Origin: Hyphococcus sp.
GTDB lineage: Bacteria; Pseudomonadota; Alphaproteobacteria; Caulobacterales; Parvularculaceae
DNA length: 64,000 nt
NCBI GenBank assembly: GCA_028284345.1
Contig: JANQRY010000010.1
Coordinates: 124,001-188,000 of the forward strand
Reading direction: 5' to 3'
Shown here: positions 22,512-52,834 of the stretch, piece after piece
Position numbering within the stretch: position 1 is the first letter of the stretch
How the letters are laid out: every line of letters starts with the position of its first letter
Made by a program: the position numbers and the translations under genes
Notes under the pieces: model-generated
What the model was told of the DNA's origin: nothing
Seen by the model: the letters and a program-made list of their open reading frames with translations, nothing else
The model's database searches: none

Positions 22512-22588
22512 GCGCCCGTAGCTCAGCTGGATAGAGCACCAGACTACGAATCTGGGGGTCAGAGGTTCGAATCCTTTCGGGCGCGCCA
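22512..22588 (+). tRNA. tRNA-Arg (ACG)
   Basis: A full cloverleaf is readable: acceptor arms GCGCCCG and CGGGCGC, D arm with GCTCAGCTGGATAGAGC, anticodon stem CCAGA/TCTGG with loop CTACGAA giving anticodon ACG, T arm with GGTTCGAATCC, discriminator G and encoded CCA. Its 3' part is the left attachment repeat of the island. Confidence 0.97.
22541..22588 (+). repeat. attL: left direct repeat of the island (48 bp, within tRNA-Arg)
   Basis: Covers the anticodon stem-loop (from AGACTACGAATCT), the variable and T arms and the CCA end. It is identical over all 48 bases to 52787-52834; flanking bases differ on both sides. Confidence 0.9.
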
Positions 22589-22682
22589 TTTCCTTTTTTC
22601 ATATCAGTCGCTTGCATTTTTCTTGCCCGACTTTCTCGTCTCGGTTTGCAGTCGGTTTGCAAAATGCGTTGCCTTGGCGTTC

Positions 22683-22868
22683 TCAAATTTGTCGATCGCC
22701 GACCGCGACAATGACGGCGCCATCGTTGACGTCCAGAACGGCACTTCGCGATCCACTTCGAAACCCAATTCGGCTGGAGAAATATTTCGATGCGTTGCGC
22801 CATTCCTTATCCGCATTCAATGCAGCCAGGTATAACTCCAACCAGGCCTCGCTCAAGAACTCAGCCAT
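22683..22868 (-). pseudogene. Short open frame, possible truncated SCP2-like protein
   Basis: 61 residues starting MAEFLSEAWLELYLAALNA, 12 bases after the cyclase stop and in the same direction, so positioned like the next gene of that operon. The beginning resembles the N-terminus of SCP2-type sterol-carrier proteins, which are about twice as long. The remaining sequence to the att repeat is open in another frame (to 22604), consistent with a frameshift or truncation at the island edge. The family call is weak. Confidence 0.3.
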
Positions 22869-22880
22869 TGGACGAACCGT

Positions 22881-23822
22881 CTATTTGATTGCGATCGGAT
22901 TAATGATTGTTTGAACGGCGCCTTCAAAGCGCGGCTGCCCCAGAACAAACATGAACTCATAGACTTCGTCCGCCGCCAACATGCGGGTGTCTAGATTCTC
23001 GAGCAAATAGGTGCCGTTTTCGAATAGCAGCGTCACATGCGCGTCGAATATAGTGTCGTCTTTAAAAGGAACAGCATCGATCCCCCATGTGTCTGCGCCG
23101 ACCGCGACGACATTTTTGCTTGCGAGATATTCAGCCCCTTTTCGATCTATTCCCGGTTCACCAGCCATGAATCGATCCGGGTCCTTTTCCAACAGGGAAA
23201 TCCAGCCCGTATGGATAATTACGACATCGCCTTCGCGAATGGTCACTCCCTGCTTTTTCGCTGCCGCCTCCAATTCCTTGGGCGTTACGATATCGCCTTC
23301 CTCAAGCCTTGCAACGCCGCGATGCTTGGCGATATCGATCAGAATGCCTCGCGTGACAATGGGTGGGATGCCTTCCACCCCAAGCTTCCTAACGCCTTCC
23401 GGTGTTACAAAATCGCTTGCTTTGTTTCCATTGTAAAAGACGCCACGGCGGCCCGCATGGGCGAGGCCGTCGATCTGGGTGCCTATCCCGAGCCACCCCG
23501 TGATCATATCATCGAGATAACTTGCCTCATTTGAGCCCAATGTGGCGCCGCCATATTGACCGGGCATCAGCACATTGATCGCCATTTTGCGCGGCGCAAC
23601 CGCAGGCGATTTGCTACCGACCGGCACGCCAAGCGCATAAACCTTGCCTTCCGTAACAAGCCCCGCCGCTTTGCGCGCAAGCTCGGGAGTCAAATAATTG
23701 GCTGAACCAATAGTGTCATCTTTGCCCCATTTTGAAGAGGAACTGTCCTGCGCGAATAACGGTAGCGCTGCATTGACGGCAAAGGCGAAAAAAAGGGCTG
23801 TGGCTTTCAGGTAGTTTTTCAT
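22881..23822 (-). CDS. Secreted cyclase-family (kynurenine formamidase-like) metal hydrolase
   Basis: 313 residues with a clear signal peptide (cleavage after ALPLFAQ near residue 25). It belongs to the PF04199 cyclase/formamidase fold: GTQIDGLAH near residue 118-126 corresponds to the metal-binding HxGTHxDxxxH motif with the first His lost and Gln in place of the second. DVVIIHTGW and GADTWGIDAVP are further landmarks. Such enzymes hydrolyse amides or lactones. Last full gene of a TonB receptor, MFS, cyclase operon (gaps of 83 and 52 bases), so it probably processes the imported compound in the periplasm. GGAGG precedes the start. Confidence 0.8.
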   Translation of the reverse strand: MKNYLKATALFFAFAVNAALPLFAQDSSSSKWGKDDTIGSANYLTPELARKAAGLVTEGKVYALGVPVGSKSPAVAPRKMAINVLMPGQYGGATLGSNEASYLDDMITGWLGIGTQIDGLAHAGRRGVFYNGNKASDFVTPEGVRKLGVEGIPPIVTRGILIDIAKHRGVARLEEGDIVTPKELEAAAKKQGVTIREGDVVIIHTGWISLLEKDPDRFMAGEPGIDRKGAEYLASKNVVAVGADTWGIDAVPFKDDTIFDAHVTLLFENGTYLLENLDTRMLAADEVYEFMFVLGQPRFEGAVQTIINPIAIK

Positions 23823-23874
23823 GTCTGTTTTTTCCTCCGCACAAATCGCGGCGAACGATTATGCTGACTGCATC

Positions 23875-25206
23875 CTAAAGTGCGTCCGCCTGTAACATCT
23901 TCCGAAACGGTTTAAGTGATAGGTAACTTAGAACGCAGGCCCCTATCCCAGCGGCCGCGCCAACTATGCTGAGTGACGCGCCCACAGCAGCGTCATCCTT
24001 GAACACAAAGTCCGTAAACAGCGCCACAGCCGTCGGTCCGATCGCAAGCCCGATAAGATTGTTGATGAACAGATAAACCGCCGAAGCCTGCGCTCGAAAA
24101 TGCGGAGGCGTCGCCATCTGTAGCGCCGCCACGCCGGAACCGAACGGAAACGCCACCAGGAAAAACACAGCTCCGACAAAGACGAAGGAAATCATCTCGG
24201 ATTTTGTCGCCGTAACGCCCAAAACAGCTGGTGCGAGCAAAAACGACCCTATCCAGACACTGCGCATCGCACCATCTTTCAATGATCTCTTATTCTGCAA
24301 ATATTCAGCCAGGCGCGCGCCCGCAACAATACCCATTGGGCCAAACACAAGGATCAAAAGTCCGATATTTCTTGCGACTTCGCTGATCGGCATATCGAAA
24401 ACACGAACGAAATACGATGGAAGCCAGGAGAATGTACTGTAGGCAACTAAAGAAACGAGCCCGATGCTGACGGCATGGCAGAGATAAAAGCCCGCATGGC
24501 TTGCCAGAAATGGGACTACGTTCTTCACAAAGGAAACCTGGTCTTTTTGTTCTATATTTTTCGCTTTGCGTGCCGGTTCCTTGATTAACAGGAGCATCAA
24601 CAGCGCCAAAATTACGCCTGGAGCGCCGACCACAATAAAGGCAGCTTGCCAACTGGCGATTTCTCCAAGGACCGGTGCTGAAATCTTGTCCAAACTATCG
24701 AGATAACTGACCGTCGCGCCGCCAAGAATATAAGCAAGCCCCGACCCGATATATGGACCGGCGCCGTAAATCGACAACGCTGTGCTTAAGCGATTTACCG
24801 AAAAATAATCCGATATCATCGAATATGAAGCGGGCGACAAAGCCGCCTCCCCGACGCCAACGCCTAACCGTCCCAGAAAAAGCGTCCAATAGCTTTTTGC
24901 AATCCCGCAAAATGCGGTCATAACGGACCAAACTGAAATCCCGATGACTATAATGTTTCGTCTCGATCGCGTATCCGCCCACTTTGCGATCGGGATACCC
25001 ATCAGCGTGTAGAACAAAGCAAACGCCAGGCCCTGAAGCAAACTAATTTGGGTATCTGAGATGTTAAGATCCCTGCGAATAGGATCTACCAACAAAGAAA
25101 TTATCTGCCTGTCAATAAAAGACAGCGTGTAAGCGACAAGTAGAAAAAAAACAACAAACCATGGATAAAGCCGCGGTTTGCTGTCGTTATCATTCAGATC
25201 TCTCAT
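23875..25206 (-). CDS. MFS transporter, spinster-like
   Basis: 443 residues with 12 predicted membrane helices. The start contains the FIDRQIISLLVDPIRRDLNISD segment and the first loop DTRSRRN of the MFS motif A region. GVGVGEAALSPASYSM in helix 4-5 is characteristic of the spinster-like MFS subfamily abundant in sphingomonads and Caulobacterales. Its place between a TonB receptor and a cyclase suggests uptake of the island substrate across the inner membrane. Confidence 0.85.
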   Translation of the reverse strand: MRDLNDNDSKPRLYPWFVVFFLLVAYTLSFIDRQIISLLVDPIRRDLNISDTQISLLQGLAFALFYTLMGIPIAKWADTRSRRNIIVIGISVWSVMTAFCGIAKSYWTLFLGRLGVGVGEAALSPASYSMISDYFSVNRLSTALSIYGAGPYIGSGLAYILGGATVSYLDSLDKISAPVLGEIASWQAAFIVVGAPGVILALLMLLLIKEPARKAKNIEQKDQVSFVKNVVPFLASHAGFYLCHAVSIGLVSLVAYSTFSWLPSYFVRVFDMPISEVARNIGLLILVFGPMGIVAGARLAEYLQNKRSLKDGAMRSVWIGSFLLAPAVLGVTATKSEMISFVFVGAVFFLVAFPFGSGVAALQMATPPHFRAQASAVYLFINNLIGLAIGPTAVALFTDFVFKDDAAVGASLSIVGAAAGIGACVLSYLSLKPFRKMLQADAL

Positions 25207-25289: not shown

Positions 25290-27563
25290 TTACCAGTCGT
25301 AACGAAGCGTCACGCCATAAGTGCGCGGTGCATTGTAGTACGCTGGGAAAGCGCCGAATAAGGAATAGCTGCCGATCAAAAACGTTTCATCGAGCAAGTT
25401 GCGGCCCCATACGGATATTTCCCAACCGCCGTCCGTTTCAAAGACGCTCAGCCGCGAATTCAACAGAAAGTAGGAATCCTGCGCGAGCCAGGGCAGGTTT
25501 TCCGCGTTCAGCTCATATTCTCCGTTGTACTTTCCATCGACCTGGATAGAGGCTGAAAAGCGGTCCGTCACAGGCTGTTCATAACGGCCAAGAACTGTGA
25601 ATGAATGATTGGCGGCAAGAGGAAGCTCATTGCCGTCGAATAGGGCGAGAGCCGGATCGGGATCATTTTCGTTTAACTGCGTATCTAGAAAAGTATACGA
25701 CGCGGCCAGATCAAGACCATCAACCGGCGCCCAAAGGACGTCGGCCTCAACCCCAAAGACATCCGCAGAATTCAAATTGATCAACTGGTTGAAGGGAAGG
25801 CCGGCGTTGCTGATACGTTGCACCCTGACTTGTGGGTCAGAATAATCGTAGTAGAAAGCAGCGCCATTGAAACGCAGCTGACCCTCAGCAACTGTCGTCT
25901 TCCATCCTAACTCGTAGGAAGTGAGAATTTCTTCGCTGTACGGCTCTAACTGTTGCCGTGTAAACGAGAAGTCGCCATCATATCCCCCGCTTTTAAAGCC
26001 GCGCGAATAACTGGCGTATATCATCGCATCATCTGTCAGAAAGTAATCCAATCCGGCACGGCCCGAGAGCTTCTTGTTTGTAACGCTATCGTCTATGATC
26101 GCTGCATCTTCCGGATTGAGACCAAAGTTCGCGACTGTTTCATTGCCAAATTCATCAGTAAAAGTATTGATACTGAAGAAGTCGCGCTCTTCATAGGTAA
26201 AACGTAATCCAGCAGTGAAACGCAATTTTTCTGTCAGAAAATACTCTGCTTGGCCATAGCCGGCGGCGCTGGTGGTTTTCTGTTCGAATTCGTTTCGGCA
26301 CTCGACGCCTAGCCCGAGGAGCGGGTTCAAATCTCCGCAAAAAATCTGGTCAATTTCGTCAAAGCTGAAATATGCTCCAACGATCCAGAAAAAGTCGCCG
26401 CTCGAGTTCGAATTCAAACGAAATTCTTGGCTTATTTGGTCTAAATTGATGTCGTAGGCATTGCTAAAAACTGCGAACGGCGACCCGTCTGCATCGGCGC
26501 TTTGCTCTTTCTCTGCGCTTTCATAAGCTGTAATGGAAGTGAAGGCGACAGCGCCCAAGTCCCATTCCAAACGCGCCGAGGCGCCCAAATTTGTTTCGTC
26601 GTTTTTACCGACAACATCATTGCTAACGGTATACGGATCTCCATCCGTATCGGAATAACCGAATGCGTCGCCGCAAAAGCGCGGATCGGAAAGCCCACCG
26701 CCGGTGGCGGTGGCTTCGCAGGTCCCGCCCGAGCCCGGAATTTGCGTAAAGCCTATCGGCGTGACAGGCAATGTGTCGGATTCTCGTCCGCCGCCATGGA
26801 CGTTCAGGAGTAGCGTTGCATTAGCGCCGATATCGAATTCCGTGAGCAGCCGGGCCGCCCAGTTGAAGTCCTCACCGACATCCGACTCTACGGTTGAAAA
26901 ATTCGGAAACGGGCCAAACGGATTTTGATCCTGCGTGAAGACGTTTGTGAAATATCCGCTGGCTTGATTTGAAACCTTGCCGGACAGACGCATCCTGATT
27001 CCGTCGGTAACAGCGCCGCCGAACGCCAGCTTGGCGTCTACAGACTGATAGTTTGAATAGCCAAATTCCGCATAGCCTTCAAATTCTTCAGTTGGCCGCT
27101 TTGTCGTATAGCTGACTGCACCGCCCGTCGTGTTTCGGCCAAAAAGAGTTCCTTGCGGACCCTTGAGAACTTCCACGCGTTCCACATCGAATATCTGAAA
27201 CCCGGTTACGATGTTCGAACCGAGATAGACTTCGTCTATGTAGACGGCGGCTGTTGGCGACGTGTTTGGGGCAAAGTCTTGTGTCCCGACACCGCGAACA
27301 ACAAATGACGGCTGACTTTTACCGCGATAGTTGTAGATTTGTACGCCGGATATTGAATCCGCAACGTTGTCCGCTGTTGAAATACCGGCGGCCCTGATTT
27401 GCTCATCGCCAAACGCCGTAACGGCGATACCGACATCCTGAACATTCTGTTCGCGCTTCTGCGATGTGACGACGATTTCGTCGACTTGCGCATGCGCCGC
27501 GCCAACGGAAAAAACCGATGGCAGCACATACAGCAGACAATTATTGAATTTCATCGGTTTCAT
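25290..27563 (-). CDS. TonB-dependent receptor 1 of the island
   Basis: 757 residues. A signal peptide ends at AAHA, then the TonB box DEIVVTSQKRE. The plug domain carries RVEVLKGPQGTLFGRNTTGGAVSY, of which VLKGPQGTLFGRN is the key segment, followed by a 22-strand barrel ending in the terminal YGVTLRYDW with C-terminal aromatic residue. It imports a substrate too large or scarce for porins. First gene of the operon with the MFS and cyclase genes. SD GGGAGGGA is five bases from ATG 27563. A dyad at 27665-27679 lies about 100 bases upstream. Confidence 0.93.
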   Translation of the reverse strand: MKPMKFNNCLLYVLPSVFSVGAAHAQVDEIVVTSQKREQNVQDVGIAVTAFGDEQIRAAGISTADNVADSISGVQIYNYRGKSQPSFVVRGVGTQDFAPNTSPTAAVYIDEVYLGSNIVTGFQIFDVERVEVLKGPQGTLFGRNTTGGAVSYTTKRPTEEFEGYAEFGYSNYQSVDAKLAFGGAVTDGIRMRLSGKVSNQASGYFTNVFTQDQNPFGPFPNFSTVESDVGEDFNWAARLLTEFDIGANATLLLNVHGGGRESDTLPVTPIGFTQIPGSGGTCEATATGGGLSDPRFCGDAFGYSDTDGDPYTVSNDVVGKNDETNLGASARLEWDLGAVAFTSITAYESAEKEQSADADGSPFAVFSNAYDINLDQISQEFRLNSNSSGDFFWIVGAYFSFDEIDQIFCGDLNPLLGLGVECRNEFEQKTTSAAGYGQAEYFLTEKLRFTAGLRFTYEERDFFSINTFTDEFGNETVANFGLNPEDAAIIDDSVTNKKLSGRAGLDYFLTDDAMIYASYSRGFKSGGYDGDFSFTRQQLEPYSEEILTSYELGWKTTVAEGQLRFNGAAFYYDYSDPQVRVQRISNAGLPFNQLINLNSADVFGVEADVLWAPVDGLDLAASYTFLDTQLNENDPDPALALFDGNELPLAANHSFTVLGRYEQPVTDRFSASIQVDGKYNGEYELNAENLPWLAQDSYFLLNSRLSVFETDGGWEISVWGRNLLDETFLIGSYSLFGAFPAYYNAPRTYGVTLRYDW

Positions 27564-27823: not shown

Positions 27824-29320
27824 TTATTGGCGCGAGTTAATCGCTGTATATTGGGTGCTCAAATACTCTTCGATGCCTTCAAACCCGCCCTCTCGGCCGA
27901 GGCCTGAGTGCTTCACGCCGCCAAAAGGGGCCACCGGATCAGATATCACGCCGGCGTTGACGCCCAGCATGCCCGCTTCAAGCTTCGCTCTGATGCGCAA
28001 GGTTCGGTCGAGGTCTCTGGTATAAACATAAGACGCCAATCCGTACTCGCTGCTGTTTGCACGCTTTAGAACTTCGTCCTCTTCCACAAAACTCTGAATT
28101 GGTGCTACCGGGCCAAAAATTTCCTCGCGCATTACACGCGCTTCATCGGGAACGTCAGACAAAATCGTTGGCGGATAAAAATACCCCGGCCCCTCTTGCA
28201 GTTCACCGCCGGTGATCAGGCGAGCTCTACGATCGACAGCGTCCAATACCATGCCGTGAACATCTTTTCGTGCTGAGGCGCTGATTAGCGGGCCAATTAT
28301 GTCCGGATCAGAAACCGCACGACCAAGCCGCAGCGCTGAAAATTTCTGCCGCAGCCTATCAGTAAAGTCATCGACGATCGTCTCATGGATGTAAAACCGA
28401 TTGGCGGCGGTACAGGCCTGCCCGATGTTGCGAAGCTTAGCCTGCATTGCGCCATCTACTGCGGCATCAAGGTCTGCGTCCTCAAACACGATAAAGGGGG
28501 CGTTTCCACCGAGCTCCATCGACGTGCGCAATACGTTTGCCGACGCATTCTTAAGTATGAGCTTCCCGACGCGAGTAGAGCCGGTAAAAGATACCTTCTT
28601 CAGCCGCGAGTCGGCCATCAAAGCGTTGACAATCTCCGATGATTTCACCGCTGGGAGGAAATTCAGTACGCCCGCTGGTAGGCCCGCATTATGCATCAGC
28701 GAAACGAATCGGGACGCGGTTAGCGGCGTTAGCTGCGCCGGTTTCAAAAGCATCGTACAACCGGCGGCGACCGCTGGGCCCACTTTTCGGGTTATCATTG
28801 CAAGTGGAAAGTTCCATGGCGTGATCAGGAGACATGGGCCAACCGCTTTTTTTGCAATAATATGCTGGAGCTTGCCGTTTGGCGCCAATTGATATCGCCC
28901 ATGAATGCGCACCGTCTCTTCAGAAAACCAGCGCAGGAATTCAGCCGCGTAAGCGACTTCTCCATGGGCGTCTCTGACGGATTTCCCCATCTCCAGCGCG
29001 ATAAGCGTGGCGAATTCATCCGCCTGCGCTATTAACATCTCAAAAGCCGTGCGAAGGATTTCTCCCCGCTCCCGCGGCGGGCGCGCCGCCCAAACTGGCT
29101 GCGCGTTGCTTGCACTCTCAAGCGCCGCTAATGCATCAGATACAGATGCGTCCGCAATCTGCATCAACTCAGCTTCTGTTGATGGGTCGTGGACCGCGAA
29201 CCTTTTTTGGCCAGCGCTCTCCTTCCAGGACCCATTGATATAAAGTCCGCCCTGAACGGATTTTAAAATGTCCGCTTCAGGAGCAATGGCCGCCGTAGCA
29301 CCGAATGCTGAAGAATGCAC
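27824..29320 (-). CDS. NAD(P)-dependent aldehyde dehydrogenase
   Basis: 498 residues of the ALDH superfamily, near succinate-semialdehyde/aromatic aldehyde dehydrogenases. It has TPWNFPLAM, the cofactor-binding FTGSTRVG, the general base glutamate in MELGGNAPF and the nucleophile cysteine in GQACTAANR. Start is a GTG at 29320, with GGAGG nine bases ahead inside the previous gene, three bases after the ThDP enzyme's stop. This coupling suggests that it oxidises the aldehyde that the decarboxylase releases. Confidence 0.9.
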   Translation of the reverse strand: MHSSAFGATAAIAPEADILKSVQGGLYINGSWKESAGQKRFAVHDPSTEAELMQIADASVSDALAALESASNAQPVWAARPPRERGEILRTAFEMLIAQADEFATLIALEMGKSVRDAHGEVAYAAEFLRWFSEETVRIHGRYQLAPNGKLQHIIAKKAVGPCLLITPWNFPLAMITRKVGPAVAAGCTMLLKPAQLTPLTASRFVSLMHNAGLPAGVLNFLPAVKSSEIVNALMADSRLKKVSFTGSTRVGKLILKNASANVLRTSMELGGNAPFIVFEDADLDAAVDGAMQAKLRNIGQACTAANRFYIHETIVDDFTDRLRQKFSALRLGRAVSDPDIIGPLISASARKDVHGMVLDAVDRRARLITGGELQEGPGYFYPPTILSDVPDEARVMREEIFGPVAPIQSFVEEDEVLKRANSSEYGLASYVYTRDLDRTLRIRAKLEAGMLGVNAGVISDPVAPFGGVKHSGLGREGGFEGIEEYLSTQYTAINSRQ

Positions 29321-29323: not shown

Positions 29324-31072
29324 TCAGGCCTCCGCCATATCTGTTCGCGCCCGCCCTTTCGCCGCAGGGGTGTCAAGTTTGTGTGTATGTCCGTCAAAAA
29401 TCCGGAGCGGTGCAAACGCATTAGGGCAGCTAACAACATCGAGAACCGTGATCGTTTCAGATGCTAACGCCTTCCTGAGCGATGGCGCGAAGTCTTCGGG
29501 GTCTTCTACGCGAATCCCTGCCGCACCAACGGAGCGCGCAACCGCAGCGTGATCAACCGTGTTAAACTCAATGCCGGTCGTCGTTTCTCCAAAGCCGAGC
29601 AATTCGCCATGGCGTTGCATAGCCAATTGGGAATTGTTTAGCACAATAAGGACCACCGGGATGTCTTCGCGAACCGCCATTTCGAGCTCACCCCAAACAT
29701 GCGCAAAACCGCCGTCTCCCACTAAACCAACCACCTTGGCGCTGGGGCGGGCTAGCTTTGCGCCCATCGCAAACGGCAAACCCCAGCCAAGTCCCGCAAT
29801 ACCGCGAGGCGTAAGAAATCGCTGGCCCGCTTTGCGTGCAGTCAGATATCCGGTCACCCAAACCGATGAATAGCTTGCATCCGCAACAACGATGTCATCG
29901 GGGCTGATAAGTTGATCGAGGTCGGCCATTAGCCTTTGAGGCATGATTGGCCGCGCCGAAGACGTCAGCTCGGGAGCAATCGCTTTTTCTCTATTGTTGC
30001 GGCCACTTTCGATTTTCTCGGACAAGTCGGAAACGTCTTGACGGCGCTTGGCAAGATCCTGCTGTTCCAACGCCGTCGTAAGATCCGCTATTGCAGATTT
30101 GGCGTCGCCGACAAGACGCACGCCTTCGTAGTTTCGGCCGACTTCCGAAGAGTCCACATCGATATGAATATAGGCGGCATTCGCGGATGTCAGAGACCAC
30201 GCCTCGGTTCCGTTCTCATTCGTGCGCGTGCCAATCAGCAAGACAACGTCGGCGTTCGAAATCAAGTCGCCGCAAGCGGTTGCCGGACCGTTCTCACCCG
30301 TAATGTTCGCAGCAACGCCCAAAGACAACGGGCCGGTCTCGTCTACAGCCCCCTTGCCCATAAAGGTTGTCGCAACAGGCAACTGAGAGACTTCAATTAA
30401 GCTGGCCAGCTCCTCGGCAGCTTGCGCCGCATGAACCCCGCCGCCCACAATAGCAATGGGCGATTCGGCGTCAGCGAGCAGTTTGGCCGCAGCGGCAATA
30501 GAAGAAGCTTCCGGACGGGGACGGTCTATTGGGAAGCTTCCAAGATTTTGCCGACGGCTTACGCCTGTCGACTCGCTTGTTTTAAGCAGCATGTCTTTCG
30601 CTAAAAGCAGCACAACCGGCCCTGGCCGCCCGCCATTTGCCGCAGTCATCGCAAGATCAATATATTCAGCCGCCCGATTCGGATCGTCGAGCCGGCGCAC
30701 CCATTTCGATACGCCCGCAAACAACGCAAAATGATCAAATTCCTGAAAGGCGTTGCGATCACGTTGAGAGGCCGGCACTTCCTGAACCAACACAAGCATA
30801 GGAATGGAAGCTTTCAACGCCTCGGCCATGGGCGCGACCATCAAAGTTGCGGCCGGACCGTTTTGGGCGGCGACAACGCCGATTTTGTTGGAAATGCGTG
30901 AATAAGCGTCGGCCATTGCTCCGGCGGCGTTTTCCGTCCTGTAAAGGAGCTGGCGAATGCCGGCGCTTTCAACCGCCAGCATCAACGCCGTCGGATTGCT
31001 CTGACCAAAGACAAACTCAACCTCGTGCCGTACCAGCGCAGACGCAATCGCCTCAGCTACGCTCTCAGACAT
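29324..31072 (-). CDS. ThDP-dependent enzyme (benzoylformate decarboxylase/acetolactate synthase-like)
   Basis: About 582 residues in three domains. The N-terminal Pyr domain has the catalytic-type glutamate in TENAAGAMADAYSR. The middle domain has a GGGVHAAQ nucleotide-binding-like loop. The C-terminal PP domain has the ThDP/Mg motif GDGGFAHVWGELEMA ending in NN. Start ATG 31072 follows AAGGAGGG; an upstream ATG would add 15 residues without such a site. Relatives decarboxylate 2-oxo acids to aldehydes or carboligate them. The directly coupled aldehyde dehydrogenase favours decarboxylation. Confidence 0.88.
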   Translation of the reverse strand: MSESVAEAIASALVRHEVEFVFGQSNPTALMLAVESAGIRQLLYRTENAAGAMADAYSRISNKIGVVAAQNGPAATLMVAPMAEALKASIPMLVLVQEVPASQRDRNAFQEFDHFALFAGVSKWVRRLDDPNRAAEYIDLAMTAANGGRPGPVVLLLAKDMLLKTSESTGVSRRQNLGSFPIDRPRPEASSIAAAAKLLADAESPIAIVGGGVHAAQAAEELASLIEVSQLPVATTFMGKGAVDETGPLSLGVAANITGENGPATACGDLISNADVVLLIGTRTNENGTEAWSLTSANAAYIHIDVDSSEVGRNYEGVRLVGDAKSAIADLTTALEQQDLAKRRQDVSDLSEKIESGRNNREKAIAPELTSSARPIMPQRLMADLDQLISPDDIVVADASYSSVWVTGYLTARKAGQRFLTPRGIAGLGWGLPFAMGAKLARPSAKVVGLVGDGGFAHVWGELEMAVREDIPVVLIVLNNSQLAMQRHGELLGFGETTTGIEFNTVDHAAVARSVGAAGIRVEDPEDFAPSLRKALASETITVLDVVSCPNAFAPLRIFDGHTHKLDTPAAKGRARTDMAEA

Positions 31073-31142
31073 CCAAATCCCTCCTTGCCGCTTCATGCTT
31101 ATTTCGATGTCGGACAAACCTTGGCTTGCGCTCGATCGTAAA

Positions 31143-32988: not shown

Positions 32989-33009
32989 GCTGCCTTCCTG
33001 CAATTGCTA

Positions 33010-35398: not shown

Positions 35399-35532
35399 AA
35401 TGGTTCGCTCCCTAGCGGACTGAAAGGGCTGAGCTGCTTTTAATAGCCAGCGCGCGCGCCTTGCCGTTTTTCGTACCGCTTTCAGCGTTCCAAACTTTAC
35501 TGCACAAGTACAATATGTCAATATTTGCAAAA

Positions 35533-35547
35533 TTTCATATAACGAAC
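35533..35547. promoter_or_regulatory. Candidate IclR operator, site 4
   Basis: TTTCATATAACGAAC in the 219-bp region between the divergent hydrolase and CoA-ligase genes. A TTGACA (minus strand, 35521-35516) lies 11 bases away, the same arrangement as at site 1. Confidence 0.5.
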
Positions 35548-40424: not shown

Positions 40425-40511
40425 TGTATTCCTCTTGTTCGAAATTTTAGAAAGATGTTGCTGAATGCGCGAGCGCGTCACAGCCCGTTGTTTTTTACAA
40501 CCGGTTTTATG

Positions 40512-44099: not shown

Positions 44100-45101
44100 T
44101 CAGCCGGGGCGGACGATAACTTTCCCAATTGCCGACCGGTCAGAGAGTCTGGCGATCGCTTTTCCGCCTTCAGCGAGCGGATAGACCTTGTCAATGCGCG
44201 GGCGGATGCGCCCATTTTTCCACCAATTTATAAGCTGCGCCACATGCTGGCGATGACGCTGAGGCTCGCGCATGAAAAACCCGCCCCAAAATACGCCACG
44301 CACATCGCAAGCTTTTAGAAGCGTCAAATTCAGCGGTAGTTTCGGGATACCAGCGGGAAACCCGACAACAAGGTAACGCCCCTCCCATGCAATTGCGCGT
44401 AGAGCTGGTTCCGCGTAATCGCCCCCAACCGGATCGTAAATCACATGCGCGCCGTCTTTTCCCACCTCGTTTTTGAACTGATGCGCAAGAGTTTTGGAAG
44501 ACTCTTTGTCAAAAGGTCCGCGCGGGTAAATCATCGTCTGGTCAGCCCCCGCCTCAGACGCCGCAGCGGCTTTTTGCGCGCTTGAAACCGCCGCAACGAC
44601 ATGCGCGCCCATAGCCTTCCCGATTTCAATGGCGGCCAATCCCACGCCGCCGGCCGCGCCCAGAACCAATAAAGTCTCGCCTGACTTGAGTTGGCCGCGA
44701 TCCGTCAACGCATGGAGCGTCGTACCGAAAGTGAAGATGAGCGCGGCTCCCTCCACAGGGTCCAGGTCGTTGCTGAGTTTGATGGCATCTTCGGCCTTTA
44801 CGATTGCCTGTTCAGCGAGGCCGCCGCCGGTCCCCATGATCGCAATCAAGCGTTCACCGATCTTCCATCCGGCGACGTCTTCGCCTATTGCGTCGACAAC
44901 GCCAGTGACTTCGCTGCCCGGCGCGAAAGGACGTTCCGGCTTGAACTGGTATTTATCTTCAATGATTAAGACATCCGGATAATTGATGCCGCATGCAAGA
45001 ATGCGCACGCGCAATTCGCCCCGTCTCGGCTCTTGAACCGGTATTTCCATTAGCCGCAGCGTCTCAGGACCGCCCGGCGTTAAAGACAATAGCGCTTTCA
45101 T
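44100..45101 (-). CDS. NADPH:quinone reductase-like medium-chain dehydrogenase
   Basis: 333 residues, MDR superfamily without structural zinc motifs. GroES-like N-terminal half with GINYPDVLIIEDKYQ and PFAPGSEVTGVV; Rossmann GAAGGVGLAAIEIGKAMGA near residue 150. The quinone oxidoreductase / zeta-crystallin branch reduces activated double bonds, for example enoyl substrates. Last gene of the module 2 operon, 61 bases after the MFS gene. Confidence 0.9.
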   Translation of the reverse strand: MKALLSLTPGGPETLRLMEIPVQEPRRGELRVRILACGINYPDVLIIEDKYQFKPERPFAPGSEVTGVVDAIGEDVAGWKIGERLIAIMGTGGGLAEQAIVKAEDAIKLSNDLDPVEGAALIFTFGTTLHALTDRGQLKSGETLLVLGAAGGVGLAAIEIGKAMGAHVVAAVSSAQKAAAASEAGADQTMIYPRGPFDKESSKTLAHQFKNEVGKDGAHVIYDPVGGDYAEPALRAIAWEGRYLVVGFPAGIPKLPLNLTLLKACDVRGVFWGGFFMREPQRHRQHVAQLINWWKNGRIRPRIDKVYPLAEGGKAIARLSDRSAIGKVIVRPG

Positions 45102-45162: not shown

Positions 45163-46425
45163 TCAGAGCGCCGTCAACGGTTGTTCCAATTCTTGTGGTT
45201 TTCCGGAAAGGCTTGCACCGAGCGTGACAAACGCTGCGCCGATTAGCAAAGCCGGCGGCGCAACATAAAGGAGGGCCTTTTGCAGCGCCTCATCTTCGCC
45301 GATCAACGGCGTCAAGACATCGCTTAGTGCGCCAACCGCCAGCGGACCGACGCCAAAGCCAACCAAGTTCAACGCAAGGAAAATCACCGCCGTTACCATG
45401 GCGTGAACGTTGGACGGCATGATCTGTTGCGAATAGCTGATAATGGGCGCGCTGCAGGCTGTCACGAAAGATGCTGCGAAGGCGAAACAAACCAGCACCG
45501 CAATTGGCGTATGACTGAGAAACGCCATGGCGGCGAATGGCGCGCTGATTGCAAACAACACAGCCGGTATCCAGAGATTCCACCGCGCATCGCGTCGGGA
45601 CAATCGGTCGGCAACAACGCCGACAATGATCGTGAAAAACAATCCGCCGACTCCGTTGATAGCGCCGATGTAACCGCCCGCCTCCGCACGGGTCATATCG
45701 TAAACACGGATCATCAACGTCGGCAGCCAGGTGATCATGCCGGCAAGACCGAGCACCGCAAGAGAGCTTCCGATTATATAATAGCGCACCGCCGGCGCGC
45801 CAAGAATAACGCTGAGTGAAGCGATGAAACCCCGGCTCGCCTCATGCGCCTTCGCGCCGCGCGGCGGATCGCGCAAAGCAAAGAATGAGATCAGACCCAG
45901 CAGAACCGGCGTCAAGCCGACAACAATGAAGGCAACGCGCCAGCCATAATGAGTAGCAATCCAACCGCATAACCAAAGGCCAATGAACGAACCGATAAAG
46001 AAACCGGACTCGGTGATTGATAGCGCAGTCGTCCTTTGCCTGGGCGGATAAATGTCTGCGATAATCGAGTGCGCCGCCGGCACGCAAGGCGAAGCGCCAA
46101 CGCCGACGCCGCACCGCGCCGCGGCAAGTTGGAAGAAATTCTGTGCAAGGCCGCAAAGGACCGTCATCCCGCCAAATACCATCAGGGCACCGCCGATTAA
46201 GCGGCTGCGGTTCGAACGGTCGGAGACATAGGCCATAGGAATGCTGGCCGCTACATAAAGCGCGACGAAAGCAAAGCCCGATAAAAAACCTAGCTGAGCA
46301 TCGCTTAAATCGAGATCGTTTTTGATGTCTTCCAGCAGAATGACGATCGCCAGACGGTCGATTGCGTGGACGATGATAATGAATGTCAGAACCAATAGAA
46401 CGGCATGCTTGCGGATGATGCTCAT
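45163..46425 (-). CDS. MFS transporter 2
   Basis: 420 residues with 12 predicted helices, same spinster-like group as the first island MFS (AIDRLAIVILLEDIKNDLDLSD, GVGVGASPCVPAAHS), but clearly divergent in sequence. Three bases downstream of the triple RidA gene's stop and therefore coupled to it. Confidence 0.88.
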   Translation of the reverse strand: MSIIRKHAVLLVLTFIIIVHAIDRLAIVILLEDIKNDLDLSDAQLGFLSGFAFVALYVAASIPMAYVSDRSNRSRLIGGALMVFGGMTVLCGLAQNFFQLAAARCGVGVGASPCVPAAHSIIADIYPPRQRTTALSITESGFFIGSFIGLWLCGWIATHYGWRVAFIVVGLTPVLLGLISFFALRDPPRGAKAHEASRGFIASLSVILGAPAVRYYIIGSSLAVLGLAGMITWLPTLMIRVYDMTRAEAGGYIGAINGVGGLFFTIIVGVVADRLSRRDARWNLWIPAVLFAISAPFAAMAFLSHTPIAVLVCFAFAASFVTACSAPIISYSQQIMPSNVHAMVTAVIFLALNLVGFGVGPLAVGALSDVLTPLIGEDEALQKALLYVAPPALLIGAAFVTLGASLSGKPQELEQPLTAL

Positions 46426-46428
46426 GCT

Positions 46429-47604
46429 TTAGCGGCTCAACTGGTGACCCAGTATGGCGACGCCATCCACGGACAAAAGCGCATCGCCGTCGACCGGCGG
46501 CAATCCCTCAATACCGGAAGACGCCGGACCAGGATCGCTGAGAAGCTCCATGCGGGCCCGTAAGTTGTTGAACCAGTTCTCCTTGTCCCACGCCCCTCGG
46601 TAATAGGTTTTGATCTTCGCCAGGTCGCTCATCTTCGCCCCGACCTGACCCAACGCATTGCACAATGCGCGCATGGCGATGCGGGCTTGCTCTGCGATAT
46701 CGCCGGGATGCGTTATCTCACCGGTTGCATCGGCTGGAAACTGACCGCTGGCGAACACTGCCTCACCGCAGCGCACAACATTGCTGAACGGCCAGCTTTC
46801 GTTCCCGTGCGGCGCATAGGCGCCGCCAAAGCGACGTCGTTGAATATTTTGATTTGCGTTGGCGATAACTTCCAGCGCAATTTTGCAGCCAGAATTTCTG
46901 TTCTCAGGAAGCAGCGTCGCATGAATAGCGGGCTTCGATTTTTCAAAGGCGCTGGCCAATTCGGTTTCCATCGCCCTGCGCTCTTCGGCGCCGATCTCGG
47001 CGCCGTAATAGGCGTAGACGCGGCATGCGTCGTCGAGAAACGCCTCAAGGCCGGCAAGCGTTTGTCGTAATCCGCTTAAGGCATCCCCGGCGCCGGTGTT
47101 CGACCGCGCCTCGGCGAAGACCCAGTCACCGCGCCGAACGCCGACGGTTACGCCCGCCGCATCTTTGGCTTTACTGCGATCTCCCTTGACGGCGATCGCA
47201 TCGATTTCGACCACGTGCCCCAGAGTCGCAAAGCTCGGCACCGGGGTCAAAATCATGAGGACATCTCGGCATTCTGGAAACTCTTCAAGGATTTGCTGAA
47301 GATAGGCGGTTTCGTCTTCTATGGCGTCGGCGAGATAGAAGATTTGAACCTGGGCGAGTTCGGCGAGCCGGCAGTCCGCCCGCGCGACCACTTCGTAAAT
47401 ACTCCGCATGCAGGTTACGCTCTGTGCCAGCATGTCGTCCGGATTGAGAGTCTTGGCGTTGTCGCCAATATCCATCTGCCCGTTTGTGAACAGCCAATCT
47501 CCGATGCGGACGGCGCGGCTTATTTTGAAGCCATCCATGACCTTTTTGACCATTGGCGAAACACTTATGGTCAATCGTTCGCCTGTTGGACCGCCGCTGC
47601 TCAT
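46429..47604 (-). CDS. Three-domain RidA-like fusion protein
   Basis: 391 residues. Three YjgF/RidA-like units can be traced: about 25-140 (RIGDWLFTNGQMDIG then VPSFATLGHVVEIDAIAV), about 150-255 (RRGDWVFAEARSNTG then PAIHATLLPE and CKIALEVIA), and about 270-388 (CGEAVFASGQFPADATG then the ALLSVDGVAIL strand). None has the catalytic arginine of deaminating RidA. RidA is a homotrimer, so the chain could fold as a covalent pseudo-trimer. Located between TonB receptor 2 and MFS 2; no known function for such fusions. Confidence 0.75.
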   Translation of the reverse strand: MSSGGPTGERLTISVSPMVKKVMDGFKISRAVRIGDWLFTNGQMDIGDNAKTLNPDDMLAQSVTCMRSIYEVVARADCRLAELAQVQIFYLADAIEDETAYLQQILEEFPECRDVLMILTPVPSFATLGHVVEIDAIAVKGDRSKAKDAAGVTVGVRRGDWVFAEARSNTGAGDALSGLRQTLAGLEAFLDDACRVYAYYGAEIGAEERRAMETELASAFEKSKPAIHATLLPENRNSGCKIALEVIANANQNIQRRRFGGAYAPHGNESWPFSNVVRCGEAVFASGQFPADATGEITHPGDIAEQARIAMRALCNALGQVGAKMSDLAKIKTYYRGAWDKENWFNNLRARMELLSDPGPASSGIEGLPPVDGDALLSVDGVAILGHQLSR

Positions 47605-47785: not shown

Positions 47786-49999
47786 CTAGAAATCAACGCC
47801 CGCTCTGACGCCCCATGTTCTGGGCAGACCCCACCAGAAAAGCCTTGTGTCGAACCCGTTAAATGTTCCGACATAGGAAGCATAGGTAGTATCCGTTACG
47901 TTCTCGACAAAGACTTGCAAGCTGTATCGGTCGCTACTGTCGCGCCAGAACGCTCGCAGGTTCAATACACCATAGGCTTCTTGCCCATCGCGTTCAGTAT
48001 TATCCAGCTGGTAAAACTGGTCCGCGACGTAGTTAAAATCACTCTGCACACTGAACTGGCCAGCTGCGATCGACGGAAAGTCATAGCGGACAAGACCGTT
48101 AAACGTGTAATTCGGCGTCCCGGTCAATTCATTTCCGTCGATCGGCGTTGCGATGCTTGCCGGACCCGTACTGAAAGTGGTTGTAATAGGCGCATCGATT
48201 TCCGTATCAAGCAATGACACTCCAAACGACGTCGTCAGTCCTTCCAAAAACCTTCCGGTGAATTCCAACTCCGCGCCACGGATCTCAACATCTCCGAAGT
48301 TGAAAAGTCGAGCAACCGGCAAATCATTGACGACTTGCGTAACAGTCGACTGTTTGTTCTCAACGTGGTTGCGGAAGATCGCTGCGGACAAGCTAATACG
48401 TCCGTCGGCCAACTCAAACTTGCTTCCAAGTTCAAGCGAAAAACTTGTTTCTGGTTCTGTTGGAGCAGCCGCCGTTGCGTCGCCAAAAAGAAGCGTCGTA
48501 TTGAAATCAGGAGATTTATACCCTGTCGCCGCATTGAAGTAGAAGAACGCCGGATCAATTGGACGCCAATTGGCGCCGGCCCGCCAAGTGAATTCATTGA
48601 CCTCAACATTGAAACTCGCGTCGGGGGCAAAGGCGAAAACAAGGTCGAGTTCCTTCGTCTCGTTTGTGAATCGAGCGCCGCCCTCAAGGCCAATAGTTTC
48701 CGTTATCGGGAAATCAACGCTCAAAAATCCAGCTAATGACTCCGTCTGTATCCGGCCAGTTGTGTCGATGGCGTCCCCAAAAAACTCCGGTAATGTACTC
48801 GTCGCCGAGCGGTCGTCATTATAGTAAAATCCGCCCAGAACCCAGTTTACACCCCTCGTTTCCCCAAGCAGCTGCAGCTCTTGTGTAAACTGATTAGATT
48901 CCAGACCATAAATAGCTGTAGCATTGCCTAAGAAGCCGCCGACAGCCGTGGCATCGCCATCTTCCGCATATATTCGATCATAATCGAGGTAGCCAGTGAT
49001 CGACACCAGCTCGATGGAGGGGGATAGCTTCCAATTCAATCGCGCCGCGTATTCAGCAAAATCAAGATGGTTCGGCAGGCCATCAGAGTCGCTGTATCCT
49101 ATGGTCGGATCTGGCGGCTCAAACACAAAACCAGTGCCGTTTACGCATTCATTAGCGACAATCCGCGCATCGCTGCACGGATCCCCTGTGTCAGGATCGA
49201 GCGCGCCTTGCGCACCGACCAAAGGAGCAATACTCCGATCCCGTGTATAGCTCGCCTTAAGGAGTAAAGTTGCATCAGGCGTAATATCAACAGCGAGCTG
49301 CCCGCGCCCAGAAATGACATCACGCGCGGACCACTTCACACCGTCAGGTATCGCCAAATTCCTTTGATAACCGTCGTCTTCATTATAGTAGAACGCCAAA
49401 CGCCCCCGCACTCGATCAGTGATACCACCGCTCACAGCGCCTTCAATCAAACGCCGATTGAAAGAGCCAACCTGACCGACCAAATAGCCTTCATGCTCAG
49501 CGGTCGGCTTTTGAGTGGAAACATTGACAAGACCAGCCGTGGTGTTTCGTCCAAATAACGTGCCCTGCGGCCCGCGAAGAACCTCGACACGTTGAATATC
49601 GTAAAGCGGCGCTCGCTGCAGGGCGCCCGCGCCATAAAAAACTTCGTCCACCGCGAAACCGACAGGCGAATCGGATGTGTCATTGAAAACCTGAAGTCCG
49701 TCGCCACGAATCCGGTATCGCGGTTGAAGGCCTGTATCCACATAGTTGAAATTCGGCGTTTGAACAGCGATCTCGTCAAGAGTGCCAATGCCGGCGTCCT
49801 CCAGCTGATCGCCGCCAAAAGCCGTCGCGGAAACCGGCGTAACGCTCAATACGGTTTCACGGCGGCGAGCCGTCACCACAATCTGATCCGTTGAGGCCGA
49901 CTCCGAGCTTTGCGGTTGCCCTGATTGCGCGCCGGCTTCGCCCCCCGCCATTAACGCCGCTGCCGCGGCGGAAGCCCACAAATATGCAGTCGCTCTCAT
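47786..49999 (-). CDS. TonB-dependent receptor 2 of the island
   Basis: 737 residues. Signal peptide to about residue 24, TonB box DQIVVTARRRE, plug with RVEVLRGPQGTLFGRNTTAG (key: LRGPQGTLFGRN), barrel ending in WGVRAGVDF. First gene of the module 2 operon with the RidA fusion, MFS and MDR genes; a 181-base gap follows. AGGGGAT precedes ATG 49999. The promoter region holds the second 32-base dyad. Confidence 0.93.
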   Translation of the reverse strand: MRATAYLWASAAAAALMAGGEAGAQSGQPQSSESASTDQIVVTARRRETVLSVTPVSATAFGGDQLEDAGIGTLDEIAVQTPNFNYVDTGLQPRYRIRGDGLQVFNDTSDSPVGFAVDEVFYGAGALQRAPLYDIQRVEVLRGPQGTLFGRNTTAGLVNVSTQKPTAEHEGYLVGQVGSFNRRLIEGAVSGGITDRVRGRLAFYYNEDDGYQRNLAIPDGVKWSARDVISGRGQLAVDITPDATLLLKASYTRDRSIAPLVGAQGALDPDTGDPCSDARIVANECVNGTGFVFEPPDPTIGYSDSDGLPNHLDFAEYAARLNWKLSPSIELVSITGYLDYDRIYAEDGDATAVGGFLGNATAIYGLESNQFTQELQLLGETRGVNWVLGGFYYNDDRSATSTLPEFFGDAIDTTGRIQTESLAGFLSVDFPITETIGLEGGARFTNETKELDLVFAFAPDASFNVEVNEFTWRAGANWRPIDPAFFYFNAATGYKSPDFNTTLLFGDATAAAPTEPETSFSLELGSKFELADGRISLSAAIFRNHVENKQSTVTQVVNDLPVARLFNFGDVEIRGAELEFTGRFLEGLTTSFGVSLLDTEIDAPITTTFSTGPASIATPIDGNELTGTPNYTFNGLVRYDFPSIAAGQFSVQSDFNYVADQFYQLDNTERDGQEAYGVLNLRAFWRDSSDRYSLQVFVENVTDTTYASYVGTFNGFDTRLFWWGLPRTWGVRAGVDF

Positions 50000-50253: not shown

Positions 50254-50985
50254 CTAGAAAGTTTCCGCGGCGCGCCCTTCGACCCGGATGGGAAGCTCGC
50301 TAAAATAGCGCGACTGCATCAGTGCTTCAACGACCTGCTCTTCGCTTTCTCTGATATGTGCCTGAAAAAGCGCGGCGGTCTTTTCCGCGTCATTCGCGCT
50401 GATGGCGTCAAACAGCAATTCATGTTCTTCAGCGTTTATGTCGCTACGAGAATAGGCCCGTCCCCCGACTTTCGGCACAAAATAAGCGATCCGGTTCGAC
50501 TGATCCAGCAATTGGGTAAGCACTTTTTCGAGGATGGGATTGTTGCTGGCGGCGTAGATTTCACGATGAATTTTATTGTGAATTTCCATCGTACCATGTC
50601 GGCCCGCCTTCGCACTCGACACATACTCTTCATTGAGCTTTCGCAGTAAGTCGACATTGACGCGCCCGACACTAGCGCGTGCGGCTAATCCCTCAAGCGC
50701 AGCACGCATCTCAAAGGTCTGGCGGATCGCCACCAGGCTAATGTCAGATACGTGAAAACCAAGGCGCGGGATCGGGGTAATCAGGCCGTCATGAGCAAGC
50801 AGCGCCAGCGCCCTGCGCACGGGGCTGCGGCTGAGATCATATTTCTCGCACATCTGCGCTTCGGTAATATCGTCGCCCGGCAGGATCTTGCAGCGAACAA
50901 TTTCGCCATAAAGAAGACGATAGGCTTTTTCACCAAGATCCGTCTTTCCGGAAATATCGTTCCCATCCCGGGTTTTTTCAGGCAT
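50254..50985 (-). CDS. GntR family transcriptional regulator, FCD domain
   Basis: 243 residues. GntR winged helix (about 18-85) with DITEAQMCEKYDLSRSPVRR and ALLAHDGLI. FCD domain (about 95-225) with metal-binding residues in NKIHREIYAAS, EEHELLFDAI and FQAHI. Such regulators are usually repressors relieved by an organic acid. ATG 50985 has GGAGAG. Upstream, on the minus strand, TTAACC-N17-CATAAT is a possible promoter and includes TGACATTT (51042-51049 region), half of the module 2 dyad. Confidence 0.92.
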   Translation of the reverse strand: MPEKTRDGNDISGKTDLGEKAYRLLYGEIVRCKILPGDDITEAQMCEKYDLSRSPVRRALALLAHDGLITPIPRLGFHVSDISLVAIRQTFEMRAALEGLAARASVGRVNVDLLRKLNEEYVSSAKAGRHGTMEIHNKIHREIYAASNNPILEKVLTQLLDQSNRIAYFVPKVGGRAYSRSDINAEEHELLFDAISANDAEKTAALFQAHIRESEEQVVEALMQSRYFSELPIRVEGRAAETF

Positions 50986-52158
50986 CTGGCTCTCCGGTTA
51001 CCATCAAAAATGAAGGTATAATCCAGATTATGGGAAGCGTAAAATGTCAGGTTAATCTTTTGTGGATTCTCGGGCGATCCAATGTAGAGTATGGTGCCAA
51101 GGGATCCACTGTTCTCAACATTGGCTGATAATATCAAGAGCAAACAAGCGTAATTAACTAGCATTCGGTTTAGTCTTACGTAGATCCCAATCCGCAAGGT
51201 CTTTGATGTCAGGGTGGTAGTAGAAGACCGCAAACACAAGACATATGACAATTCACCAACATCAGCTTCTTGACATTTACGATGCCAAAAGCACACGGGA
51301 TTTTCGGCCATAAGAAATAACCGTCCACTGCTACAATAACGTTGCACATACCTCGGATTGTTGCGCATTTGGGAGATGAGAATAGCGAGTATTCGTGGTT
51401 ATCGATTTGCCAAAACTATGATTACCGATACTCGCTTATTTTGGACGTTGCTATTGCAAGCGGCCTCGGTTCAATTTCGGGTTGGAAGCGAATAGCTGCC
51501 CGTCAGTAACTTACTATTGCCGCCGGTTCGGTCCGTCGCAACCAATTCAACGTAGCTGCGCCGTGTGGTGGCAGATTTAGACCCCGAGTTATTCTGCTCA
51601 CGCCGCTGGCTTTTTGAGCTTTAATTCCAGGTCGCTGCAAAATTACTGGGGGTTGCCGGTATACGTATTCCGCTGCCGGCGATGAGACTCCCCCTAGTGC
51701 CTTGATTGTATTTCAACTGTTTTATTCTGTATACTAATAATAATTTGATGTAGTAGCATTTGGGACCGCCGGGTCGTGGGAGAAAGTATTGAACAATCTT
51801 TCGTCGTATTCGTCTCTCGCATATTCGTATCCCTCACCTCACTGCTCGTTGGTGAAGTCCGGAGCGAAGGCATAGGACGAACAGCCCTCGCGACGCGGCG
51901 AGACTGTTCCCCGTGCCTCAGCGTGAAGGTCATGCTCGTCGGAGCCAGCCCATCGCTTTGGCCCGATACGTCACAAACGGACTGCGTATCGGTTGGCTGC
52001 TACTTTCGAGAACGTCCGCGCTCCCGGCGGTCGGGCTTCAGCCTTTCGGACTGCCCGTGACCTTTGACCGCGCCCCACAGTTGGTCTCGCATGTCGCGCG
52101 CTGCCGTCATTCAACCGACCACGCGACATGAGGTAGCGCCCCGTCGTAACGGGGCGTT
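50986..52158. other. Gene-poor right shoulder of the island
   Basis: 1.17 kb with no convincing coding sequence; the open frames are short and lack ribosome binding sites. It contains a GntR promoter-like stretch, a hairpin at 51384-51436, a near-perfect dyad at 51782-51802, an AT-rich patch near 51700-51760 and an orphan plus-strand terminator at 52137-52165. It could hold a decayed recombinase or a small RNA. Confidence 0.6.
51384..51436. other. Inverted repeat in intergenic DNA
   Basis: AGCGAGTAT (51384-51392) pairs perfectly with ATACTCGCT (51428-51436), followed by TATTTT on the plus strand. Possible terminator-like hairpin or binding site; no gene ends here. Confidence 0.4.
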
Positions 52159-52165
52159 TTATTTT
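52137..52165 (+). terminator. Rho-independent terminator (plus strand)
   Basis: CGCCCCG, loop TCGTAA, CGGGGCG, then TTTTATTTT. On the minus strand no T-tract follows. No plus-strand gene ends here, so an unannotated transcript is implied upstream. Confidence 0.75.
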
Positions 52166-52686
52166 GCCGCCTCCTTTCGACCCTTGATTTTGATTTCGCT
52201 CGCAGACACAGCAGCAGAGTTGAGGTCTGCTAACGTGCAGATCACGTCGCCCAAGCGCTCTTTCAGCTCCGAGCGGATTTCTTCGATAAGATCGAGATCA
52301 ATGGCGGCGCCCGCCTTGAATTTAGCCTCACTTTTGCGGAGTCTTTCAGGCAGGCGCGCCACATAGAATCTGACCCAATTGAGCGCCTCCCATGCCCGCA
52401 CATATGCGCGCTCAACGCCGCCCTCACAGACTTCGCTCGGAGACCGGGATTTGCTCGGCGTATCCCTGTCGGCCAAGGCCGAGAAATTCTCTTTCGGGAT
52501 AATCGCGTAGTTGCGGTCTCGCCCATGGACAGTAACGATATCGCCACCGTCGAGAAGCGCCTCAAACAATGCGAGATGCGCATCGGCGATAGGCGACCCG
52601 TAAACGGCTTGCAGCGCCTCCACGGGCGCAAAGATCTGCCTTAGGAAGTCGCCAGGCGACGAGCCGCGCCGCCACGCCGCCGACAC
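52159..52686 (-). CDS. Unrecognised island protein next to the right att
   Basis: About 175 residues from a GTG at 52686. I do not recognise the family. The first part (FLRQIFAPVEALQAVYGSPIADAHLALFEALLDGG) looks helical, the rest is basic and mixed, ending in EIKIKGRKEAAK. The frame stays open upstream through the right att repeat to 52854, where it is antisense tRNA and not a real start; this suggests that the original 5' end was lost or lies at an unusual start. No good ribosome binding site is seen. Confidence 0.45.
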   Translation of the reverse strand: MSAAWRRGSSPGDFLRQIFAPVEALQAVYGSPIADAHLALFEALLDGGDIVTVHGRDRNYAIIPKENFSALADRDTPSKSRSPSEVCEGGVERAYVRAWEALNWVRFYVARLPERLRKSEAKFKAGAAIDLDLIEEIRSELKERLGDVICTLADLNSAAVSASEIKIKGRKEAAK

Positions 52687-52786
52687 GCGGTTATCGTTTT
52701 GCAGATTTTCCGCAACGTATTGATTTGATTGCCGTCGTTTTTGCGCCGGTTTGCAAAAACTACGTTTGTTATCAACGCGATCTGAA

Positions 52787-52834
52787 AGACTACGAATCTG
52801 GGGGTCAGAGGTTCGAATCCTTTCGGGCGCGCCA
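52787..52834 (+). repeat. attR: right direct repeat of the island (48 bp)
   Basis: Identical to 22541-22588; begins AGACTACGAATC and ends with the GCGCGCCA of the tRNA-Arg 3' end. The 5' half of the tRNA is absent, so this copy is not a functional gene. Confidence 0.9.

Follow-up and report, generated by a model that had tools for sequence, protein, structure and literature searches.

Genomic islands that carry catabolic genes and reside in tRNA genes are marked by repeats of the tRNA 3' end, a shift in GC content, and catabolic operons accompanied by regulators and transporters. Among the described elements that come closest to the locus studied here, cis-mobilizable elements (CIMEs) are defined in PMC5704250, and PMC3146451 offers a precedent in which integrase-less islands were interpreted as possible CIMEs. 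In this study, we analyzed a window of 64,000 nucleotides from Hyphococcus sp. (contig JANQRY010000010.1, positions 124,001 to 188,000), of which positions 22541-52834 are a genomic island borne by a tRNA-Arg(ACG) gene. With a probability of about 85%, we consider it a CIME-like island that is devoid of an integrase, has kept its attachment (att) sites, and carries a single cargo unit of 22 genes.

The boundaries of the island are given by three features:
22512..22588, + strand, intact tRNA-Arg(ACG), the integration target (ARAGORN; Rfam tRNA, 68.3 bits)
22541..22588, + strand, left att core, the 3' 48 bp of tRNA-Arg(ACG), identical to 52787-52834
52787..52834, + strand, right att core, a partial tRNA copy, identical to 22541-22588

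The two cores, spaced 30,246 bp from start to start, match at 48/48 bases with the adjoining base mismatched on either side, and they are the sole direct-repeat family of at least 25 bp within 22500-53200. ARAGORN called a single tRNA in the window, at 22512-22588, and did not call the right copy. The GC content was 54.2% in the island interior (30.2 kb) versus 61.9% in the left and 61.7% in the right flank; windows of 2 kb ranged from 0.502 to 0.571 inside (n = 28) and from 0.555 to 0.678 outside (n = 31), with a p-value of 1e-10 that is optimistic since these windows overlap. The median GC at third codon positions (GC3) was likewise lower, at 0.60 in the 22 cargo genes versus 0.74 in 12 flanking open reading frames (ORFs). 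A tRNA 3'-end repeat at the far end, a tRNA left whole and a composition unlike that of the flanks are therefore all present, as for tRNA-borne islands. The original prediction, made from the sequence alone, had claimed the perfect 48-bp repeat, an intact left and a partial right tRNA copy, lower GC between them and a content of uptake and breakdown genes, and had proposed a GC and codon profile as a check. Each of these claims was borne out, the profile being lower in the island by GC and GC3 alike and a Pfam scan of 27 island ORFs recognizing 22 uptake, catabolic or regulator genes. Entry at the tRNA-Arg 3' end via site-specific recombination is supported by sequence comparison, because of this repeat together with an integrase relic, arm-like motifs at the ends, and two relatives in which this tRNA hosts other islands, each with a second tRNA copy of its own.

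The gamma-glutamyltransferase gene to the left of the tRNA was present in 26 of 28 genus genomes, including that holding the window (G000; 3.4 Mb in 10 contigs), and the fetched flank beside it contained a tRNA-Arg match at 23 of these 26 loci (three partial). The region beyond the tRNA was fetched for 15 relatives over 3.5-19 kb; G004 was not comparable, its tRNA-Arg (G004:C1:2069000-2069212) being inverted with the 3' end facing the gamma-glutamyltransferase gene. Two of the 15 relatives possessed a second tRNA-Arg copy: that of G016 lay 18.1 kb away and was exact over 45 bp, while that of G014 lay 7.7 kb away and matched the G014 tRNA perfectly over 48 bp, the latter being different from the tRNA of the window. 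The G016 island contains four peptidase genes and TonB receptor, Fur, CobW, and ParB genes, and the G014 island encodes a 1725-aa RHS-repeat protein. Integrases adjoining tRNA-Arg and reading towards it were found as an open frame of 353 aa in G015, a frame-broken homologue in G016, a stop-interrupted gene in G014, and a 37-aa piece in G013.

Large serine recombinase genes were also observed at this tRNA. In G012, in G027 (where the gene contains one stop), and in G006 (a partial gene; G006:C43:9144-9989), they end at or within approximately 70 bp of its 3' end, and in G014 such a gene overlaps the second tRNA copy; the site would thus seem to be used by both serine and tyrosine recombinases. 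Within G000, a degraded serine recombinase stretch with two stops (G000:C5:67182-67536) stands beside another tRNA that is 86% identical to tRNA-Arg. Past the second att copy, G016 contig 8 (1-24000) holds fragments of a serine recombinase and a tyrosine integrase, which suggests a tandem graveyard of elements.

Both ends of the window island hold features that recur in these relatives:
22643..22717, - strand, 25-codon relic of a tyrosine-integrase C-terminus, assigned by likeness to the broken integrase of G014
22642..22660, + strand, candidate arm-type sites, a pair of GTTTGCA motifs spaced by 11 bp (tRNA offsets 56 and 67)
52747..52757, + strand, GGTTTGCAAAA, candidate arm-type site of the right end, lying 37 bp inside it
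51841..52127, no strand assigned, segment common to other islands of the genus, matching the corresponding part of the G014 tRNA-Arg island at 83% over 288 bp
52159..52710, - strand, orphan end ORF, 32-35% identical to the correspondingly placed ORF in the G014 island

Instead of the own integrase expected of an autonomous integrative element (integrative and conjugative element, ICE; integrative and mobilizable element, IME; or prophage), only the 25-codon relic is present, which was noticed only through the comparison of island ends. It matched the C-terminus of the broken G014 integrase at 68% over 25 aa (tblastn E 5e-6), a match equalled by 0 of 5000 shuffles; the underlying DNA matched G014 over 44 bp at 84%, at equal distance from the tRNA (0 of 2000 shuffles equal). 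The G015 and G016 integrases as tblastn queries gave best E-values of 4.2 in the window and 0.58 on the island ends, and neither a recombinase nor a relaxase or conjugation family was found by Pfam among the 27 island ORFs. On this evidence, the integrase gene of the island appears to be gone apart from its last codons.

The positions of the GTTTRCA motifs were similar across genomes. The left pair lies at offsets 56/67 from the tRNA in G000 and G014, 55/66 in G016, and 47/58 in G015 and G013; at the right end, the motif lies about 37 bp inside in G000 and 40 bp (GTTTACA) and 92 bp inside in G016, and G014 has the one-base variant GATTGCA 38 bp inside. The layout is therefore common to three islands (G000, G016, and G014) at both ends and to G015 and G013 at the left end, and we regard these motifs as candidate integrase arm sites. 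The left motifs sit within the integrase relic, and their conservation may also be coding. In addition, the segment at 51841-52127 (~290 bp) is conserved near the right ends of otherwise unlike islands, part of it matching G016 contig 8 at 86% over 157 bp; it had no Rfam match at gathering thresholds and none in plasmid or phage collections. The open frame of the end ORF extends into the att repeat, to 52854, and this ORF was assigned to a family by neither Pfam nor PHROGs at the limits applied and had no match in the plasmid collection. The window island shares the right-end segment and the end ORF with G014 and therefore has the frame of a G014-type element carrying other cargo.

The most serious alternative is a working island, whose integrase lies inside it but was missed, or which a resident integrase still excises routinely. 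Both att cores and the arm-like motifs are intact, and G000 encodes seven PF00589 proteins, as found by a six-frame hidden Markov model (HMM) search of the genome. Yet none of these seven lies on the contig of the window, the Pfam scan of the island gave no recombinase, and for the integrase family found at tRNA-Arg in G015 and G016, the relatives encoded by G000 reach only 25-27%, which together make this explanation improbable.

The cargo could be compared with that of another relative of the same genus, G009, in which all 22 cargo genes, from the cyclase to the GntR regulator, are colinear on contig 71 (752-27457) at 62-92% protein identity. The genes are as follows (percentages are protein identities to the G009 orthologue):
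22881..23822, - strand, PF04199 cyclase-family metal hydrolase (Pfam E 1e-26; 85%)
23875..25206, - strand, major facilitator superfamily (MFS) transporter (Pfam; 80%)
25290..27563, - strand, TonB-dependent receptor 1 (Pfam; 89%)
27824..29320, - strand, aldehyde dehydrogenase 1, succinate-semialdehyde dehydrogenase (SSADH)-like (Pfam; only a 94-aa fragment in G009, 68%)
29324..31117, - strand, thiamine-pyrophosphate (TPP) enzyme, NF004772 subfamily (NCBIfam 789 bits, cut-off 673; 83%)
31312..32082, - strand, IclR-family regulator (Pfam; 87%)
32191..33003, - strand, short-chain dehydrogenase 1, NF009386 (NCBIfam 285 bits, cut-off 250; 82%)
33010..34443, - strand, aldehyde dehydrogenase 2 (Pfam; 88%)
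34535..35578, - strand, alpha/beta hydrolase, start codon uncertain (Pfam; 74%)
35549..37231, + strand, acyl-CoA ligase 1, start codon uncertain (Pfam; 79%)
37235..37939, + strand, DsbA-fold protein, 2-hydroxychromene-2-carboxylate-isomerase-like (PDB 3fz5, 120 bits; 68%)
37860..38846, + strand, short-chain dehydrogenase 2, NF006133 (NCBIfam 411 bits, cut-off 250; 80%)
38887..39294, + strand, RidA-family protein (Pfam; 82%)
39582..40481, - strand, enoyl-CoA hydratase/isomerase 1 (Pfam; 62%)
40512..41882, - strand, PaaK-like (phenylacetate-type) CoA ligase (PDB 2y4o, 166 bits; 86%)
41926..42699, - strand, enoyl-CoA hydratase/isomerase 2 (Pfam; 80%)
43042..44088, + strand, succinylglutamate desuccinylase/aspartoacylase-family deacylase (Pfam PF24827; 85%)
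44100..45101, - strand, zinc-type quinone oxidoreductase (Pfam; 85%)
45163..46425, - strand, MFS transporter 2 (Pfam; 88%)
46429..47604, - strand, 391-aa protein, RidA-like in a stretch of each half (Pfam PF01042, two stretches; 78%)
47786..49999, - strand, TonB-dependent receptor 2 (Pfam; 81%)
50254..50985, - strand, GntR/FCD regulator (Pfam; 92%)

In G009, this block is located at a different tRNA. A complete tRNA-Gly(CCC) stands at the end of contig 34, contig 71 starts with the same 66 bases, and the GntR end of the cargo therefore adjoins tRNA-Gly. The orientation is opposite to that in the window, where the cyclase end faces tRNA-Arg. A 37-bp copy of the tRNA-Gly 3' part (92%) stands at 27588-27624 of contig 71, 130 bp beyond the cyclase gene, the last of the cargo, and is followed by an IclR gene and then by core genes; again, no integrase was recognized in the G009 island. 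In the 11 other genomes compared, a core gene for a HAGH-type hydrolase lies downstream of tRNA-Gly in every case (15 bp to 12.8 kb; <4 kb in 10; the G016 contig terminates inside this gene), and none of the 11 has the cargo in between, which provides an empty-site comparison for the G009 island. The cargo is also absent from the tRNA-Gly region of G000 and from the fetched tRNA-Arg region of G009 (19 kb), and blastn of the window against the G009 island revealed no shared ends and nothing common beyond the cargo. The tRNA-Gly(CCC) locus is itself variable: G021 has a second copy of 29-30 bp at a distance of 2.3 kb, and G023 has one ~12.8 kb ahead of the core gene.

The cargo is rare. Of 348 genomes sampled from the order, G000 and G009 alone yielded a TPP enzyme and a PaaK-like ligase that passed strict limits. 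When 84,980 species genomes were scanned by pattern for the 391-aa RidA-like protein, a single locus was returned, the record of G009 itself, whose 15,240 bases there are identical to G009 contig 71; no viral contig matched. A class-wide search with the same protein (385 alphaproteobacterial genomes sampled) gave only G000 and a full-length relative at 32% besides the G009 orthologue. The median identity between G000 and G009 was 81.9% for cargo orthologues (n = 19) versus 69.7% for other genes (n = 20; p = 5e-4), the latter taken only from near the fetched sites and including one, at 38%, that may be a paralogue. This excess favours exchange after the species split, without proving it, and the 22-gene block appears to move between species as one unit.

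The original prediction had drawn attention to two regulated modules combined in one island. Their catabolic content was confirmed by Pfam. They do not appear to be a chance combination, both modules recurring jointly and with unchanged gene order at the tRNA-Gly of G009. The presence of two regulators, two TonB receptors and two MFS carriers would fit a chance joining of two unrelated catabolic modules in the island; this is highly unlikely given the identical order in G009 and the restriction of each module's marker to G000 and G009 among the 348 genomes. Because the two are colinear at another tRNA, they appear to be one co-inherited cargo unit. Least credible of all is ancestral chromosome lost by the other species, in which case the partial tRNA at 52787 would have been duplicated by chance or gene conversion: a clean empty site was not found at tRNA-Arg, but the cargo occurs in 2 of 348 genomes at two different tRNAs, its GC is low, an integrase relic marks its end, and other islands occupy the same tRNA.

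For the CIME-like island, the order of events that we infer is as follows. A genomic island would have integrated at the 3' end of tRNA-Arg(ACG) through site-specific recombination of the tyrosine-integrase type, leaving the tRNA whole and placing a 48-bp copy at the far end. Its integrase gene, once adjoining the tRNA and reading towards it, would since have been lost save for the last codons, and the space was presumably taken up by the uptake-and-catabolism cargo. Excision and mobilization would then require either a related integrase acting in trans or joint movement with a neighbouring element. A bolder version, which we consider unlikely, is that the cargo behaves like a satellite: an island with no mobility gene of its own, it would use integrases borrowed from other elements and differing in tRNA specificity (a tyrosine type at tRNA-Arg, another at tRNA-Gly) to hop between tRNA sites and between species of the genus.

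Several points weigh against this reconstruction. The relic comprises only 25 codons and was overlooked by the first tblastn with other integrases. The GTTTRCA motif was picked after inspecting the ends, and its positional constancy across genomes outweighs the p-values from random internal 120-mer pairs, of which 0 of 20,000 in G000 and in G016 and 6 of 20,000 in G014 held as many motifs; no arm-like motif was found at the G009 island ends. The tRNA-Gly junction of G009 depends on two separate contigs being joined through an exact overlap of 66 bp, and the higher identity of the cargo could mirror constraint rather than recent transfer. An empty tRNA-Arg site joining 22588 to 52835 was found in none of the 15 relatives; of the check proposed originally, an uninterrupted tRNA-Arg locus with both flanks was thus not found in the relatives examined, and the empty state is documented for the tRNA-Gly island of G009 only. 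Finally, G016, the closest relative, carries a gene cluster like the right flank (TonB-receptor and phytase relatives) on a different contig, and the near edge of the block collinear between G000 and G009 is 54.3 kb from the tRNA in the former (24 kb past the right repeat) and 18.3 kb from it in the latter. Owing to these last two observations, the right neighbourhood is itself variable, and more DNA than this island came and went.

Regarding function, the cargo may act on aromatic or aryl-alkyl acids, perhaps activated with CoA, with side-chain processing as our best, still doubtful, guess. The closest PDB entries of acyl-CoA ligase 1 are fatty-acyl/feruloyl-CoA synthetases and those of the PaaK-like ligase are phenylacetate-CoA ligases; no ring oxygenase was recognized in the island ORFs scanned. 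The substrate would be imported by the two TonB receptors and two MFS carriers, deacylated, activated with CoA, and passed through crotonase and dehydrogenase steps, under the control of the IclR and GntR regulators. NCBIfam, PDB, and plasmid neighbourhoods did not name the substrate. Relatives of the TPP enzyme at 53-63% identity occur on the listed rhizobial and other plasmids, and in the two neighbourhoods opened, genes for a quinone oxidoreductase, a GntR regulator, a FabG-type short-chain dehydrogenase/reductase, and an ATP-binding cassette (ABC) importer are nearby; relatives of the deacylase (35-40%) occur on three plasmids, two of which were opened, one without annotation there. The true start of short-chain dehydrogenase 2 is probably near 37990, the NCBIfam match beginning at residue 45. 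For the 391-aa RidA-like protein, AlphaFold gave a poor model (mean predicted local distance difference test, pLDDT, 33.5).

Among the papers found to mention both Parvularcula and genomic islands, no title or abstract opening describes this island. The cluster also offers a well-delimited starting point in the search for a new marine carbon-source pathway, and at the tRNA-Arg hotspot, intact, broken, and nearly erased integrases can be aligned as stages of decay. Compared with CIMEs as described in PMC5704250 and PMC3146451, the island similarly keeps attL and attR cores, here with arm-like motifs, has lost its integration gene, contains no transfer gene recognized by Pfam, and resides at a tRNA target with tandem elements at the locus in relatives. 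It differs in that no adjacent ICE or IME was recognized in the window, the same cargo occurs at two tRNAs in two species, and mobilization is putative here. The Dehalococcoides ssrA islands without integration modules, as presented in PMC3146451, also bear metabolic cargo, lack an integrase at one tRNA-like gene, and occur in tandem copies; in contrast, they involve serine recombinases at a transfer-messenger RNA (tmRNA) gene, versus a tyrosine-integrase relic at tRNA-Arg and unrelated cargo in the window. With tRNA-borne catabolic islands in general, the island has the tRNA 3'-end repeats, GC shift, and regulated catabolic and transport genes in common, and differs from them in having no integrase of its own. 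Against this background, one cargo at two tRNAs is an uncommon pairing: a single metabolic package in identical gene order, at two tRNA genes of two species and without an integrase, forms a natural pair with which to ask how cargo passes between integration systems.

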